DNA of 64,000 nt from a bacterium (GTDB lineage Bacteria; Verrucomicrobiota; Verrucomicrobiia; Limisphaerales; UBA11358). Of this stretch, positions 31,321 to 40,108 are shown in pieces. Numbering within the stretch: the stretch's first letter is position 1; each line of letters begins with the position of its first letter. The notes below the pieces were generated by a model. The model had not been told where the DNA came from. It searched no databases and was given only the letters and a program-made list of their open reading frames with translations. Location: assembly GCA_021813325.1 (NCBI GenBank), contig JAKALA010000004.1, positions 1-64,000 of the forward strand, read 5' to 3'. The translations under genes were made by a program, and so were the position numbers.

Positions 31321-31353
31321 TTTGTCGGATTTGCGGGCGGACGGTTGTTTAAT
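31321..31353 (+). promoter_or_regulatory. Shared sigma-gene upstream block (copy 1)
   Basis: TTTGTCGGATTT (31,321-31,332), 9 nt, then CGGTTGTTTAA (from 31,342), then TGGGTGAG running into the GTG start at 31,360. The same block with the same 9-nt spacing precedes the other fused sigma gene (35,980-36,020). Such conservation in otherwise unlike flanks suggests a promoter read by an ECF sigma factor, perhaps autoregulatory. Confidence 0.55.
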
Positions 31354-31359
31354 GGGTGA

Positions 31360-33063
31360 GTGAACGAAGAATCTGACATCCAATTGCTGCGGGCCTATGC
31401 GAAACATCGCGACGAAAACGCGTTTCGCCAGTTGATTCTGCGTCACACCGACTTCGTTTATTCCGCTGCCTTGCGGCAGGTCAATTCCGCGGCCATGGCG
31501 GCCGATCTGGCCCAGCAGGTTTTCACCGATCTCGCCACCAAATCACCCGAAGTGGCCAGCAAAAATAACGGGAGTTCACTGGCCGGTTGGCTGCACCGGG
31601 CCACGCGCTACGCGATTCTGAATCATCTGCGCGACGACCGTCGCCGCCGCGATCATGAAAGGCAGGCCATGGAACAACTCATCACCAACTCTGATCCGGC
31701 GGCGGATTGGGAGCAGATTCGTCCGGTTTTGGACGAAGCGCTTGATCTGCTGACCGATGACGACCGCGAAGCCCTGTTGTTGCGCTATTTTAAAAACCAG
31801 GATTTGCGCACCGTTGGAACTGCGCTCGGCGTGAGCGACGATGCCGCGCAAAAACGGGTAAGCCGGGCGTTGGAAAAGCTGCGCGACTTCTTTAGCAAAC
31901 GGAAAATCACCGTCGGGGCGGGCAGCCTGGGCATTTTGCTATCTGCCAACGCCGTTCAATTCGCGCCGGTGGGGTTGAGCGCAAAAATTTTAGTCGCAAC
32001 TTCTGGGATAACCGCAACCGCTGGAATGACCATGATTCATAAAATTCTCATCGCCGGATTCGCCGCCGCCGCGATTGGCAGTGGCATTTTTTCGTTTCAT
32101 TTGCAGAAACAAATTGGCGCCATGCAACAACGACATGCTGCATTGAGCCAACAAATCACGCAACTGAGTCAGGAGCGTGACGATGCGAAAAATCAATTGG
32201 CGGCGGCGCAGCAGGCATATGAGCGGCGACAAACTAATCAGGATGAACTTTTGCGGTTGCGCGGGGAAATCGGCGTGCTGCGGCGGCAGTTGGATGAAGC
32301 GACTGAAAAGAATCGCGCGTTGCCGGCCGCAGTTTTGGCAATGAGCACCAATTCGCCGCCGCAAATCCACCTCAAAGCCAGATTTTTCACGATGCCGAAA
32401 GACGTATTTGCCGGCATGGGCGGTGCAGTTACCGCCAGCGGCATTTTGACCGATCCAAATTTTCGCGTCGCATTGCATGCCTTGGAACAGCATAGCGACG
32501 TTGAATTCCTCGCCGAGCCGGAAGTGACGACAACCAGCGGACGTGAAATACAAATGCGGGCAACACAGGCAAATTCTGTTGTGACCAATTATTGCCTTCT
32601 AGAAACCAACGGCACTTCCATCATTTTTCCTCAAGTCGGAAGCATTGAAACGGGACCGGTTCTCGACGCAACGCCGCGCGTTTTGTCTGACGGTTATACC
32701 ATCGAATTACCCGTTGTCGCTTCGCTGGTGGATTTTTTGGGTTACGCAAAATCTACCAACACGACTCAGGCGTATGATTCAACCGGGCAGGAAATTGATT
32801 TGCCAACGGTTTCGCCCCAATTTCGGGTGCAATCAATCACCAATTGGGTGAACCTCTATGACAATCAGACGATGGTGTTTGGGCTGAAGGATAATCAAGC
32901 TCAACTGGAAACCGCGCTGGCAGCACTGGATGGCAGCAAGTCCAACATTCTTGACCGGCACACGCTCGTGTTTGTCACCGCCACCATCATTGACCCTGCC
33001 GGCAATCGGGTGCATGAAGACGGAACTTATACCAACGTTCCGCCGCAACCGGTCGGCCAGTGA
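31360..33063 (+). CDS. ECF sigma factor fused to a membrane helix, coiled coil and secretin-like domain
   Basis: The 567-residue protein starts with an ECF sigma: region 2 (about 8-100, RHTDFVYSAALRQV, AGWLHRATRYAILNHLR) and region 4 (about 125-180, REALLLRYFKNQDL, HTH ALGVSDDAAQKRVSRALEKL). A hydrophobic segment (190-225) and a transmembrane helix (about 227-247) come next, then a coiled coil (248-320). Residues 335-550 resemble the secretin core fold: VEFLAEPEVTTTSGREIQM, GPVLDATPRVLSDGYTIEL, and a LYDNQTMVFGL stretch. The GTG start follows the shared upstream block. I infer a sigma factor anchored in the inner membrane with an extracytoplasmic domain; release or signalling is unproven. Its tail and 3' flank are duplicated at 30.6 kb. 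Confidence 0.85.
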   Translation: MNEESDIQLLRAYAKHRDENAFRQLILRHTDFVYSAALRQVNSAAMAADLAQQVFTDLATKSPEVASKNNGSSLAGWLHRATRYAILNHLRDDRRRRDHERQAMEQLITNSDPAADWEQIRPVLDEALDLLTDDDREALLLRYFKNQDLRTVGTALGVSDDAAQKRVSRALEKLRDFFSKRKITVGAGSLGILLSANAVQFAPVGLSAKILVATSGITATAGMTMIHKILIAGFAAAAIGSGIFSFHLQKQIGAMQQRHAALSQQITQLSQERDDAKNQLAAAQQAYERRQTNQDELLRLRGEIGVLRRQLDEATEKNRALPAAVLAMSTNSPPQIHLKARFFTMPKDVFAGMGGAVTASGILTDPNFRVALHALEQHSDVEFLAEPEVTTTSGREIQMRATQANSVVTNYCLLETNGTSIIFPQVGSIETGPVLDATPRVLSDGYTIELPVVASLVDFLGYAKSTNTTQAYDSTGQEIDLPTVSPQFRVQSITNWVNLYDNQTMVFGLKDNQAQLETALAALDGSKSNILDRHTLVFVTATIIDPAGNRVHEDGTYTNVPPQPVGQ

Positions 33064-35979: not shown

Positions 35980-36018
35980 TTTGTCGGATTTTCCTCCGCT
36001 CGGTTATTACTTGGGTGA
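35980..36018 (+). promoter_or_regulatory. Shared sigma-gene upstream block (copy 2)
   Basis: TTTGTCGGATTT (35,980-35,991), 9 nt, CGGTTATTAC (from 36,001), TTGGGTGAG, then the ATG at 36,020. It matches the block before the sigma-secretin gene at 31,321 in sequence and spacing. CGTAAAA also lies a little upstream of both. The short distance to the start codon means a very short or absent 5' leader. Confidence 0.55.
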
Positions 36019-36019
36019 G

Positions 36020-37723
36020 ATGCAGTCAAAAACCGACGCCCAACTCCTGCGCGATTACGCCGAACTCGGTGTGGAAGCCGCTTTCACCGAACTCGTCCAG
36101 CGTCACACCAATCTCATTTACTCCGCCGCGTTTCGGCAGGTCGAATCCGCGGACGTCGCGGCGGAACTGACGCAAAATGTCTTTGTCAGCCTGGCCCGCG
36201 ACGCGAAGGCCCACGCCCCGAGATTTTCCCCGGAAGCTTCGCTCGCCGGCTGGCTGTGCCGGGCCGCCCGCAATTTGTCCCTGAATCATCGGCGTGACGA
36301 GTTTCGCCGCCAAACCCGCGAACAACAAGCCATGGAACAGCTCTTGCCAATTTCGGAAGACGCGCCGGACTGGGGAAAACTCCGCCGGGTGCTCGATGAC
36401 GCCATGGCTGAGCTGAACGAGTCGGATTACGATGCCATCGTGCTCCGTTTCTTTCAAAACCAGGATTTTCGCGCGGTGGGCGCCGCGATTGGCGTGAGCG
36501 ATGACACGGCGCAGAAACGCGTTGCCCGGGCGCTGGACAAGCTGCGCGACCTGCTGGCGCAACGCGGCATTCGCACCACGGCGGGGGCGTTGGGCATCGC
36601 GCTGACCGCCAATGCCGTCCAAGCCGCGCCCCTCGGACTCGCCGCGACCATTTCCGGCGCCGCCCTCGCGGGAGCTACCACCACTACTTCCACCCTTGTT
36701 GCTGCTACCACCAAAACCATTGCCATGACCTTACTCCAAAAAACCATTATTACCGCCGCGTTTGTCGCGGCCGCCGGCGCGGGCATTTACCAAGCCCGCC
36801 AGGCCGCGCACCTCCGTGATCAGGTTCAGACGCTTCAGCAAAGCCAGACGGCGTTGAACCATCAACTGGCCACCGCCATGGCGGAAAATGCCCGGCTGAC
36901 CAATCGCTTGGCGCAGGTAAAGGAAGACAAAGGCCTTTCCCAGGCGCAATTTGCTGAATTGTTGAAACTGCGCGGACAGAAGGGGCAAAACCAAACCGCC
37001 TTGAGCGAGCTGGAAAAAATGCAGGCGGCCAGCCGACAGACGCGCGCAATGTCCACGGTGTTTACCAATGCCATGCAGAGAGGCATGGAGTATGCCGAAA
37101 AATGGCAGCAAAAGCGCGCCCAGGAAAAACTCCTCCGCATGATCGAACAGTTGCATCTGACCGATGGCCAGGCTCAGTCGGTGAGCAACATCTTGATGCG
37201 GCAAATTGAAGAAAACACGCAACGATCCCTGGCCGCCGTCTCCGGTCAGCCGGTCGTCACCAGCCAGGGTGAACCCAGCGAGGATTCCCAAATCCAGGCC
37301 TTGCTCACGCCGGACCAACTGGCGGCCTACCCGGAGTTTGAACAGTCGGAAAAGGAGGTTTTGGCCCGCAACACGGCCAATTCGCAGGTGGCCCTCATGC
37401 AAAGCAGCATGGATTTGACGCCCGACCAGCAAAGCCAGTTGAAATCCGCGCTTTATCAGTATGAATTGAACCAGTCCTCCAGCCTCACCAATCAAATGGA
37501 CATGATGACCAAAGCCCGCGCAAACGGCGATATTGCCGACGCCACGACCCTGGCCATGGAAATTCAAAAACAACAACTGGCGGACAAATTAAAATTGTTC
37601 ACCGGTATTCTTACGCCGGACCAGTTGAAATCTTACCAGAAAAGCCAGACCGACATGATGGAGATGCAAATGTCCGCATTGAAAATGTTTTTGCCGCAGA
37701 CCAATGATGTGAGCAATCCATGA
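36020..37723 (+). CDS. ECF sigma factor fused to a membrane helix, coiled coil and LTxxQ (Spy/CpxP-like) repeats
   Basis: Also 567 residues. Sigma region 2 (8-100, RHTNLIYSAAFRQV) and region 4 (about 125-182, IGVSDDTAQKRVARALDKL) are intact. Ala/Thr-rich hydrophobic segments follow (190-228), then a transmembrane helix (about 238-257) and a coiled coil (260-335). The C-terminal half has four LTxxQ-type motifs: LHLTDGQ (379), LLTPDQL (428), DLTPDQQ (465) and ILTPDQL (530), each starting a helix, as in the periplasmic chaperones Spy and CpxP. ATG at 36,020 (MQSKTDAQLL) was preferred to the TTG at 35,981 because the latter falls inside the conserved upstream block. I infer a membrane-tethered sigma factor with an envelope-stress-like sensor domain. 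Confidence 0.84.
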   Translation: MQSKTDAQLLRDYAELGVEAAFTELVQRHTNLIYSAAFRQVESADVAAELTQNVFVSLARDAKAHAPRFSPEASLAGWLCRAARNLSLNHRRDEFRRQTREQQAMEQLLPISEDAPDWGKLRRVLDDAMAELNESDYDAIVLRFFQNQDFRAVGAAIGVSDDTAQKRVARALDKLRDLLAQRGIRTTAGALGIALTANAVQAAPLGLAATISGAALAGATTTTSTLVAATTKTIAMTLLQKTIITAAFVAAAGAGIYQARQAAHLRDQVQTLQQSQTALNHQLATAMAENARLTNRLAQVKEDKGLSQAQFAELLKLRGQKGQNQTALSELEKMQAASRQTRAMSTVFTNAMQRGMEYAEKWQQKRAQEKLLRMIEQLHLTDGQAQSVSNILMRQIEENTQRSLAAVSGQPVVTSQGEPSEDSQIQALLTPDQLAAYPEFEQSEKEVLARNTANSQVALMQSSMDLTPDQQSQLKSALYQYELNQSSSLTNQMDMMTKARANGDIADATTLAMEIQKQQLADKLKLFTGILTPDQLKSYQKSQTDMMEMQMSALKMFLPQTNDVSNP

Positions 37724-38975: not shown

Positions 38976-39488
38976 TTACTGGATCGCCGGAGCAAAACTG
39001 GCTGGTTGAACTTGAAACAGCGAGCCGGAATTAGGCTGGCCAAATAAATTGGCCACAGGTTGCAAGCTGGTAACTGGCGTGGGTTTGGCCACAATGCCGA
39101 TGCCGGCAGGCGCGGGGGCCAGCGCGGGTGAACTGATGGATGCCAGGTCACTGGTTTGCGGTTGCGGAGTTGGCACTGAAACCGTTAAGAAATTATTGGC
39201 CACCGGCTCGGATTGTTCCGCGAAAATCGCTCCCAATATCAAAAGCCCGCACAAACTCGCGGCCAAGCCGCCAATGACGGCGGGGCGCGCCGTGAACATT
39301 TCAAAGAAACGAACCAACCAAGGCGCGTCTGCCTTGGGTGATCGGGATGGCTCATCAGCCTCGCCCGCTTGGATTTTGGCGATGATCTGGGCGGAAAAGT
39401 TGCTGAAATAGCCGACGGGCGGCACTTCATGCCGCTTGAGTTTCAACAATGTTTTCAACTCGCCGAAGTCTTGATCTTTTTTATTCAT
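38976..39488 (-). CDS. Single-pass membrane protein coupled to the ECF sigma factor (possible anti-sigma factor)
   Basis: The 170-residue protein has a cytoplasmic N-terminus (GELKTLLKLKRHEVPPVGYF), one transmembrane helix (about 80-97, GLAASLCGLLILGAIFA) and a Pro/Ala/Ser-rich outer part. ATG at 39,488 overlaps the sigma stop by 4 nt (ATGA), the arrangement typical of sigma/anti-sigma pairs. There is no zinc-binding HxxxCxxC motif, so it is not a ZAS-type anti-sigma by sight. The role is inferred from coupling and topology. Confidence 0.65.
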   Translation of the reverse strand: MNKKDQDFGELKTLLKLKRHEVPPVGYFSNFSAQIIAKIQAGEADEPSRSPKADAPWLVRFFEMFTARPAVIGGLAASLCGLLILGAIFAEQSEPVANNFLTVSVPTPQPQTSDLASISSPALAPAPAGIGIVAKPTPVTSLQPVANLFGQPNSGSLFQVQPASFAPAIQ

Positions 39489-40108
39489 GATGACTTTATG
39501 TATTCGGCCAAAAAGCCCTGCAATTGCTGACGGGCGTAAAACAATCGTGACCGCACCGTCCCGATGTTGCAATCCATAATGTCGGCAATTTCCTCGTGTG
39601 ACAGGCCTTGCACGTCATGTAAAATCACAACCATTCTGTGAGGTTCAGACAATTTCATAAGTGCCTCGTTCAATTTTTTTTGCAACTCGGTCAAACCGGC
39701 GTTGCGAAACGGTGTTTTGTCCGAAATCAACGCGATCAAATCCGGGTTGTTTTCCGTGTTGAAATCCAGATCGTTGAGGCTGTAATGATGTTTGTTTTTG
39801 CGCTGCTTGAGAAAATTGATGGCCTTGTTGACAGCAATCCGGTAGAGCCAGGTGTAAAAACTCGATCCGCCCTTGAAGGACTTTAATGCCTGGTAGGCTT
39901 TGATGAAGGCCTCCTGAGCAATGTCATTGGCGTCTTCATGATTTGCTGTCATGTGGTAAATCGTGGCGTAAATGCGTTCTTGATAACGCTTTACAAGTTC
40001 ATCGTAAGCCTCCAAATCGCCCTGGCGGGCGAGGCTCACCAAATCTCCCTCCAGCCTTCCGGCAAAAGAACTTGCGTCGGTCATGGGGGTTGTTTCTGAC
40101 ATAATCAT
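39485..40108 (-). CDS. RpoE-like ECF sigma factor
   Basis: A plain ECF sigma of 207 residues: region 2 with YQERIYATIYHMTANHEDA, DIAQEAFIKAYQAL and SSFYTWLYRIAVNKAIN; region 4 with EPHRMVVILHDVQGLSHE and EIADIMDCNIGTVRSRL. There is no C-terminal extension, unlike the two fused sigmas at 31 and 36 kb. The ATG at 40,108 overlaps the polyprenyl synthase stop by 4 nt; a second ATG (MSETTP) at 40,102 is also possible. The chain of overlaps makes synthase, sigma and membrane protein one translational unit. Confidence 0.92.
   Translation of the reverse strand: MIMSETTPMTDASSFAGRLEGDLVSLARQGDLEAYDELVKRYQERIYATIYHMTANHEDANDIAQEAFIKAYQALKSFKGGSSFYTWLYRIAVNKAINFLKQRKNKHHYSLNDLDFNTENNPDLIALISDKTPFRNAGLTELQKKLNEALMKLSEPHRMVVILHDVQGLSHEEIADIMDCNIGTVRSRLFYARQQLQGFLAEYIKSS

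Follow-up and report, generated by a model that had tools for sequence, protein, structure and literature searches.

As a rule, ECF sigma factors receive signals from outside the cell through a separate anti-sigma protein. In metal sensing of the CnrYXH type, the task is divided between three proteins, an ECF sigma, an anti-sigma and a periplasmic sensor; CnrX, which controls an ECF sigma, has a fold related to those of ZraP and Spy. Spy and CpxP, members of the LTXXQ family (PF07813), are free periplasmic proteins of one module, and CpxP is an inhibitor of CpxA. Membrane-anchored ECF fusions are known as well, namely IutY (ECF243) and ECF48, ECF52 and ECF53, including SCO4117 (PMC8999054). 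These carry an anti-sigma/zinc-finger part before the membrane, and IutY is activated via its release by Prc and RseP (PMC8999054). In the cirYZ-spy operons of Bacteroidales, Spy-like proteins are genetically tied to ECF sigmas; the genes are separate, and Spy, co-transcribed with the sigma/anti-sigma genes, behaves as an induced output (PMC13114119). ECF sigmas that bear large C-terminal domains have also expanded within particular lineages, as in the planctomycete WD40-repeat ECF sigmas (PMC8567305) and in ECF57 (PMC8999054).

The gene at 36020-37723 of the window (the whole stretch of 64,000 nucleotides that was analysed; Table 1) can be compared with each of these systems. Like IutY, ECF48, ECF52 and ECF53, it is predicted to encode a single protein in which a sigma factor continues through a C-terminal membrane helix into an extracytoplasmic domain, and for which a separate anti-sigma would be unneeded. 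Unlike them, it has an uncharged linker before the membrane, and its tail is a predicted Spy/CpxP tandem, the place of which is taken in sibling proteins by any of about 30 other types. With CnrYXH it shares a sigma part resembling CnrH and, as proposed here, a helical periplasmic sensor for an ECF sigma, but these are parts of a single chain with no recognised equivalent of the anti-sigma. Both modules of the tail match the LTXXQ family by profile and carry paired LTxxQ motifs; in contrast to free Spy and CpxP, they stand in tandem, apparently tethered to the membrane and fused to the sigma. The Bacteroidales link between Spy-like proteins and ECF sigmas is found here as a fusion, and a free-standing version is also present in the genome (C78). 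The expansion resembles those of the WD40-repeat sigmas and ECF57, whereas the domains are others and are attached through a transmembrane (TM)-coiled coil unit with an ELLKLRG motif. Since ECF48, 52, 53 and 243 with their C-terminal extensions are known, a membrane-anchored ECF sigma is not new as a kind. Neither a sigma-LTXXQ fusion nor Pedosphaera ECF sigmas were found in a literature search. Three features could cautiously be regarded as new: input through a Spy/CpxP tandem, the lack of any anti-sigma part that can be recognised, and a large-scale exchange of sensors in which the promoter boxes stay linked to the sigma.

Table 1. Positions of the fused gene, its sibling and their parts in the window
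Feature	Position	Strand	Remark
Sibling platform gene, secretin-type tail	31360..33063	+	PF00263 29.2 bits, cut-off 27.5
Sigma-TM-coiled coil-(LTxxQ module)x2 gene (putative modules)	36020..37723	+	ATG start, 567 aa; same architecture in relatives
Sigma-70 region 2 (residues 25-94)	36092..36301	+	Pfam PF04542
Sigma-70 region 4 (residues 128-176)	36401..36547	+	Pfam PF04545
Linker motif ANAVQAAPLGL (residues 197-207), uncharged	36608..36640	+	conserved in family members of any tail
Single transmembrane helix (residues ~242-258), after conserved MTxLQK	36743..36793	+	
Coiled coil (residues 259-312)	36794..36955	+	
ELLKLRG junction motif (residues 313-319)	36956..36976	+	83-100% conserved per residue
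Putative LTxxQ module 1 (residues 368-446), Spy-like	37121..37357	+	profile comparison
Putative LTxxQ module 2 (residues 452-554), CpxP-like	37373..37681	+	profile comparison
LTxxQ motif 1, LTDGQ (residue 380)	37157..37171	+	
LTxxQ motif 2, LTPDQ (residue 429)	37304..37318	+	
LTxxQ motif 3, LTPDQ (residue 466)	37415..37429	+	
LTxxQ motif 4, LTPDQ (residue 531)	37610..37624	+	
-35-like box TTTGTCGGATTT of bipartite promoter-like element	35980..35991	+	conserved upstream
-10-like box CGGTTATTACTT	36001..36012	+	7 bases before ATG, near-leaderless
-35-like box of sibling gene	31321..31332	+	same TTTGTCGGATTT
-10-like box CGGTTGTTTAAT of sibling gene	31342-31353	+	

The best explanation, which we consider probable, is a one-protein transmembrane device composed of an LTXXQ sensor in the periplasm and a membrane-held ECF sigma. 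Its computed support comprises the identity of the sigma part, the LTXXQ homology of both modules, the exchange of tails, a likely outward topology and a promoter that follows the sigma; we infer its ligand, proteolytic release and regulon.

In the sigma part, regions 2 and 4 are recognised above the curated Pfam cut-offs (PF04542, 31.8 bits against 24; PF04545, 27.9 bits against 24.1) and region 3 is absent, which is the arrangement of an ECF sigma. The TIGR02937 sigma70-ECF model gives a score of 73.6 (cut-off 42.9), and with TIGR02989, the Rhodopirellula/Verrucomicrobium sigma subfamily, the protein reaches 47 bits, below the cut-off of 124.55. The predicted model of this part is similar to solved ECF sigmas, CnrH among them; for the linker and membrane helix the model confidence is low (pLDDT ~30). 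Charged residues are absent from residues 186-231, and no anti-sigma or zinc-finger domain is recognised by Pfam or NCBIfam between the sigma and the membrane helix. The position of the ATG is conserved in close relatives. An assembly chimaera or a frameshift as the source of the fusion was rejected, because the architecture is found again in many genomes and in several families of the order.

The tail contains four LTxxQ motifs where 0.25 are expected (P(>=4)=3e-5, 200,000 shuffles). They are paired, two per module, and are kept in relatives with some LT-to-LS changes. The Pfam model PF07813 gives 17.4 bits on this tail, below its cut-off of 24.3; the match spans 37382-37636 and ranks second in the genome. 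The same model matches 11 of 22 related tails (best E 7.9e-8), one of which, L025, passes the cut-off with 33.4 bits over two stretches. When a profile built from the 22 related tails was searched against 177,635 PDB sequences, the six best matches were Spy, then CpxP, with Spy (3oeo) aligned to module 1 (E 2.4e-5) and CpxP (3qzc) to module 2 (E 0.005). In hhalign comparisons with 15 free-standing LTXXQ proteins of bacterial genomes, to which Spy and CpxP of E. coli were added, module 1 scored 97.7% (E 1.5e-12), module 2 95.1% (E 3.4e-8) and the whole tail 96.9%; the controls, eight different domains from this protein family, gave 0.1-2.9%. The two modules also match each other (96.2%, E 2.4e-9); with E. 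coli Spy and CpxP only as the target, module 1 retained its match (94.1%) and module 2 lost it (17.7%). AlphaFold models the tail confidently as helical (pLDDT 85.8, pTM 0.77), and a helix begins at or beside each of the four motifs. Lack of a usable Foldseek match is common for long-helix bundles, and since none of the PDB matches of this model was significant (best E 0.88), the assignment to LTXXQ rests on sequence profiles.

Because both halves match LTXXQ profiles and the controls do not, the four motifs are read as two tandem modules, and the tail is thus predicted to be a Spy/CpxP (LTXXQ) tandem. The first-pass annotation had described an ECF sigma fused to LTxxQ repeats, with four such motifs beyond the membrane helix and coiled coil. 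Both statements agree with the sigma regions, the profile homology and the motif positions given here, and the membership of the tail in the LTXXQ family, for which an HMM comparison had been proposed, is borne out by the PDB profile matches, the controlled hhalign comparison and the PF07813 matches in relatives. Another candidate, DUF3658 (PF12395), gave 24.6 bits on the full protein and was rejected: the tail alone reaches E 0.011-0.016, and no family-wide match was found. A second, more divergent LTxxQ-like subtype of tail occurs on the same platform (L028, L035, L041, L063:4918-7008, L107, L120, L121).

Alternatively, the modules could sense metal or redox state, as CnrX and ZraP do, rather than unfolded protein. 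The related folds of CnrX, ZraP and Spy and the control of an ECF sigma by CnrX would allow this, and a methionine-rich pattern, DMIDMQxSAMKMF, is kept in the C-terminal helix of close relatives. However, the tail has no Cys and a single His, and the sequences that match best are those of Spy and CpxP, CnrX and ZraP being absent from the PDB matches of the 22-tail profile; metal or redox sensing is therefore quite improbable in our estimate.

The side of the membrane on which the tail is located bears directly on the best explanation. Direct topology prediction is weak, because two more hydrophobic stretches (residues 186-230) precede the main helix and a second membrane pass is possible. With two passes, the C-terminus would be cytoplasmic and the tail would be an intracellular interaction domain, comparable to the extensions of soluble ECF42-type sigmas. 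We consider this arrangement very unlikely, given the siblings on the same platform, the tails of which are of extracytoplasmic type: secretin, SecDF_P1_head (9e-27) and CarboxypepD_reg (3e-32), plus Ig-like domains. It is also at odds with the net charge around the helix (+2.1 on the sigma side vs. +0.8 on the tail side, 105 family members) and with sigma-less proteins that open with the TM-coiled coil-ELLKLRG unit, as a signal anchor would. Since the sibling tails, the charge bias and the signal-anchored sigma-less versions agree, the tail most likely faces the periplasm, and the earlier placement of it outside the cytoplasm is retained on this basis. The sigma-less protein of locus L036 starts at the conserved MTTxQK, so that an internal start at Met236 is conceivable in the fused genes. 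Other sigma-less proteins of this kind are encoded at L200:2037-2906, L201:15377-16252, L202:2241-3014, L204:905-1663 and L205:35-763; of the whole set, several adjoin sigma-bearing siblings.

The platform itself was studied in 131 distinct matches to a profile of the sigma, linker, transmembrane helix and coiled coil, a small number of which are ECF sigmas that are plain or truncated. The tails in this sample group into about 34 sequence clusters, and secretin, SecDF-P1 head, carboxypeptidase-regulatory, TPR, HEAT and RCC1 types are represented among the siblings. The ANAVQAAPxGL linker and the ELLKLRG junction are strongly conserved regardless of the tail, and divergence begins past ELLKLRG. 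Swapping shows directly in individual pairs: L020 and L021 are 46% identical in the sigma part and 88% in the tail, while for L020 and L073 the values are 90% and 34%. Of 97 members, 69 have a different tail type from that of their nearest sigma neighbour. Exchangeability of sensor parts on a common sigma-TM-coiled coil platform, suggested in the first-pass annotation, is well supported by these comparisons of predicted proteins. The same annotation had taken the equal length of the fused gene and its secretin-tailed sibling (31360-33063) as a sign of a common plan. Both proteins are indeed of 567 aa, but this equality is a coincidence, because tail length varies across the family, mostly between ~90 and 360 aa, and reaches 847 aa in one member.

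Within the order, 91 of 293 genomes, belonging to 48 of 118 genera, contain matches to an alignment of the TM-coiled coil-tail part; none was found in 288 genomes sampled from the rest of the phylum. The named relatives are metagenome-assembled genomes of Limisphaerales / Verrucomicrobia subdivision 3. Intact-frame sigma-LTxxQ fusions are present in members of six of its families (f1, f9, f16, f23, f26 and f52 of the order). At L064:3946-5591 (the L229 locus), the sigma and TM-LTxxQ parts lie in two overlapping frames, due to a frameshift or an assembly error. At L063:3671-5116 (+), the tail is a SecDF P1-head (E 9e-27), the sigma being apparently fused to a piece of protein-export machinery. 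Platform genes form arrays of three to six within ~15 kb in several genomes; such arrays would favour tail exchange. At L200-L203 and L206, as many as six lie within ~15 kb in a single genome.

The diversity of tails bears on another possible role of the LTxxQ part. It could be an effector, i.e., a tethered periplasmic chaperone, or a CpxP-like autoinhibitor released by titration, and not a direct sensor. The inhibition of CpxA by CpxP provides a precedent for the latter, and the Spy of Bacteroidales, an output of sigma/anti-sigma operons (PMC13114119), for the former. The non-chaperone tails found on the platform (secretin, TPR, HEAT, RCC1) fit input domains better, and an effector or autoinhibitor role is accordingly given a low probability.

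Upstream of the family genes a bipartite element is found, with the consensus TTTGTCGGATTT, a gap of ~8-9 bases and a GG(Y)RTTTAAT-like box, which in most of them ends right before the start codon. The first box is matched in at least 8 of 12 positions in 102 of 121 family genes, and its exact 12-mer is present in 25 of them and in none of the shuffles. In the 64 kb of the window, exact copies of TTTGTCGGATTT are limited to the two sites listed in Table 1. With increasing identity of the sigma parts, similarity of the -10 box climbs from 0.50 to 0.82 and that of the -35 box from 0.68 to ~0.85, and flank similarity stays flat at ~0.42; a common tail type has no effect on box similarity. The boxes thus vary with the sigma subgroup, whatever the tail, which suggests autoregulation by each sigma. 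In a genome search for further targets, the full bipartite element was found, among nine exact 12-mers, at the two window genes only, and the genome yielded no target gene outside the family.

The best explanation could be realized through the following steps. The ECF sigma would be anchored at the inner membrane through its own C-terminal membrane helix, and the periplasmic coiled coil would present the two tandem LTXXQ modules as the input domain. These modules would bind a ligand, most likely an unfolded envelope protein, although metal is possible. The signal would travel along the coiled coil and activate the sigma part, which would be freed from the membrane, most likely by regulated (intramembrane) proteolysis. 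The freed sigma could then drive transcription of the gene that encodes it, using the TTTGTCGGATTT-N9-CGGTTATT promoter, and of other genes. Proteolytic release is proposed because IutY is released in a similar way (PMC8999054) and because an M50 site-2 protease is encoded in the genome. The sensing of unfolded envelope proteins and the signal-driven transcription are drawn from homology and should be read as presumptive.

The lack of an anti-sigma domain before the membrane makes the off-state of the sigma a point against the best explanation. CadC and ToxR-type regulators work while tethered to the membrane, and the sigma could likewise be active without proteolysis, with the LTxxQ tail and coiled coil governing dimerisation or access to RNA polymerase. 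A direct conformational switch of this kind is possible, because no anti-sigma domain is recognised and because the linker, which is long and uncharged, shows strong conservation. We nevertheless regard it as unlikely, though the least so of the alternatives discussed, in view of the Prc/RseP-dependent release of IutY (PMC8999054) and the M50 protease encoded here.

Functions united in the fused gene also occur side by side in genes of their own. Of 24 free-standing LTXXQ genes in the same genus, 15 have an ECF sigma gene no more than 1.5 kb away, and in many cases it follows directly downstream. Since free-standing LTXXQ genes mostly adjoin ECF sigma genes, the fusion appears to unite two functions that already travel together. 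An apparent operon in the genome under study (G000:C78, ~54.6-56.3 kb; L167) encodes a secreted LTXXQ protein, an ECF sigma, a small membrane protein, which could be an anti-sigma, and an LTxxQ-like protein anchored in the membrane. An LTXXQ-sigma pair resembling this one is seen repeatedly in the genus. Beside the fused gene, on the minus strand at 38976-40108 of the window, a plain ECF sigma (39485-40108) precedes a protein of 198 aa, which has a single likely membrane helix and does not match Pfam; this pair is probably a classical sigma/anti-sigma one.

A broader proposal, for and against which we see equal weight, is that the order possesses plug-and-play one-component sigmas with a self-recognised promoter, an invariable linker-TM-coiled coil, a sensor recombined past ELLKLRG and no anti-sigma, the Spy/CpxP version of which would read folding stress directly. 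Sensor and sigma would then be joined in one chain, with dozens of sensor types and with promoter boxes that follow the sigma. The family may serve as a natural series for how a membrane-tethered sigma stays off and gets released, and it could allow outside domains to be paired with defined promoters. To our knowledge, few envelope-stress pathways are known in Verrucomicrobiota, and the protein encoded at 36020-37723 may offer a reading of envelope stress for this phylum.
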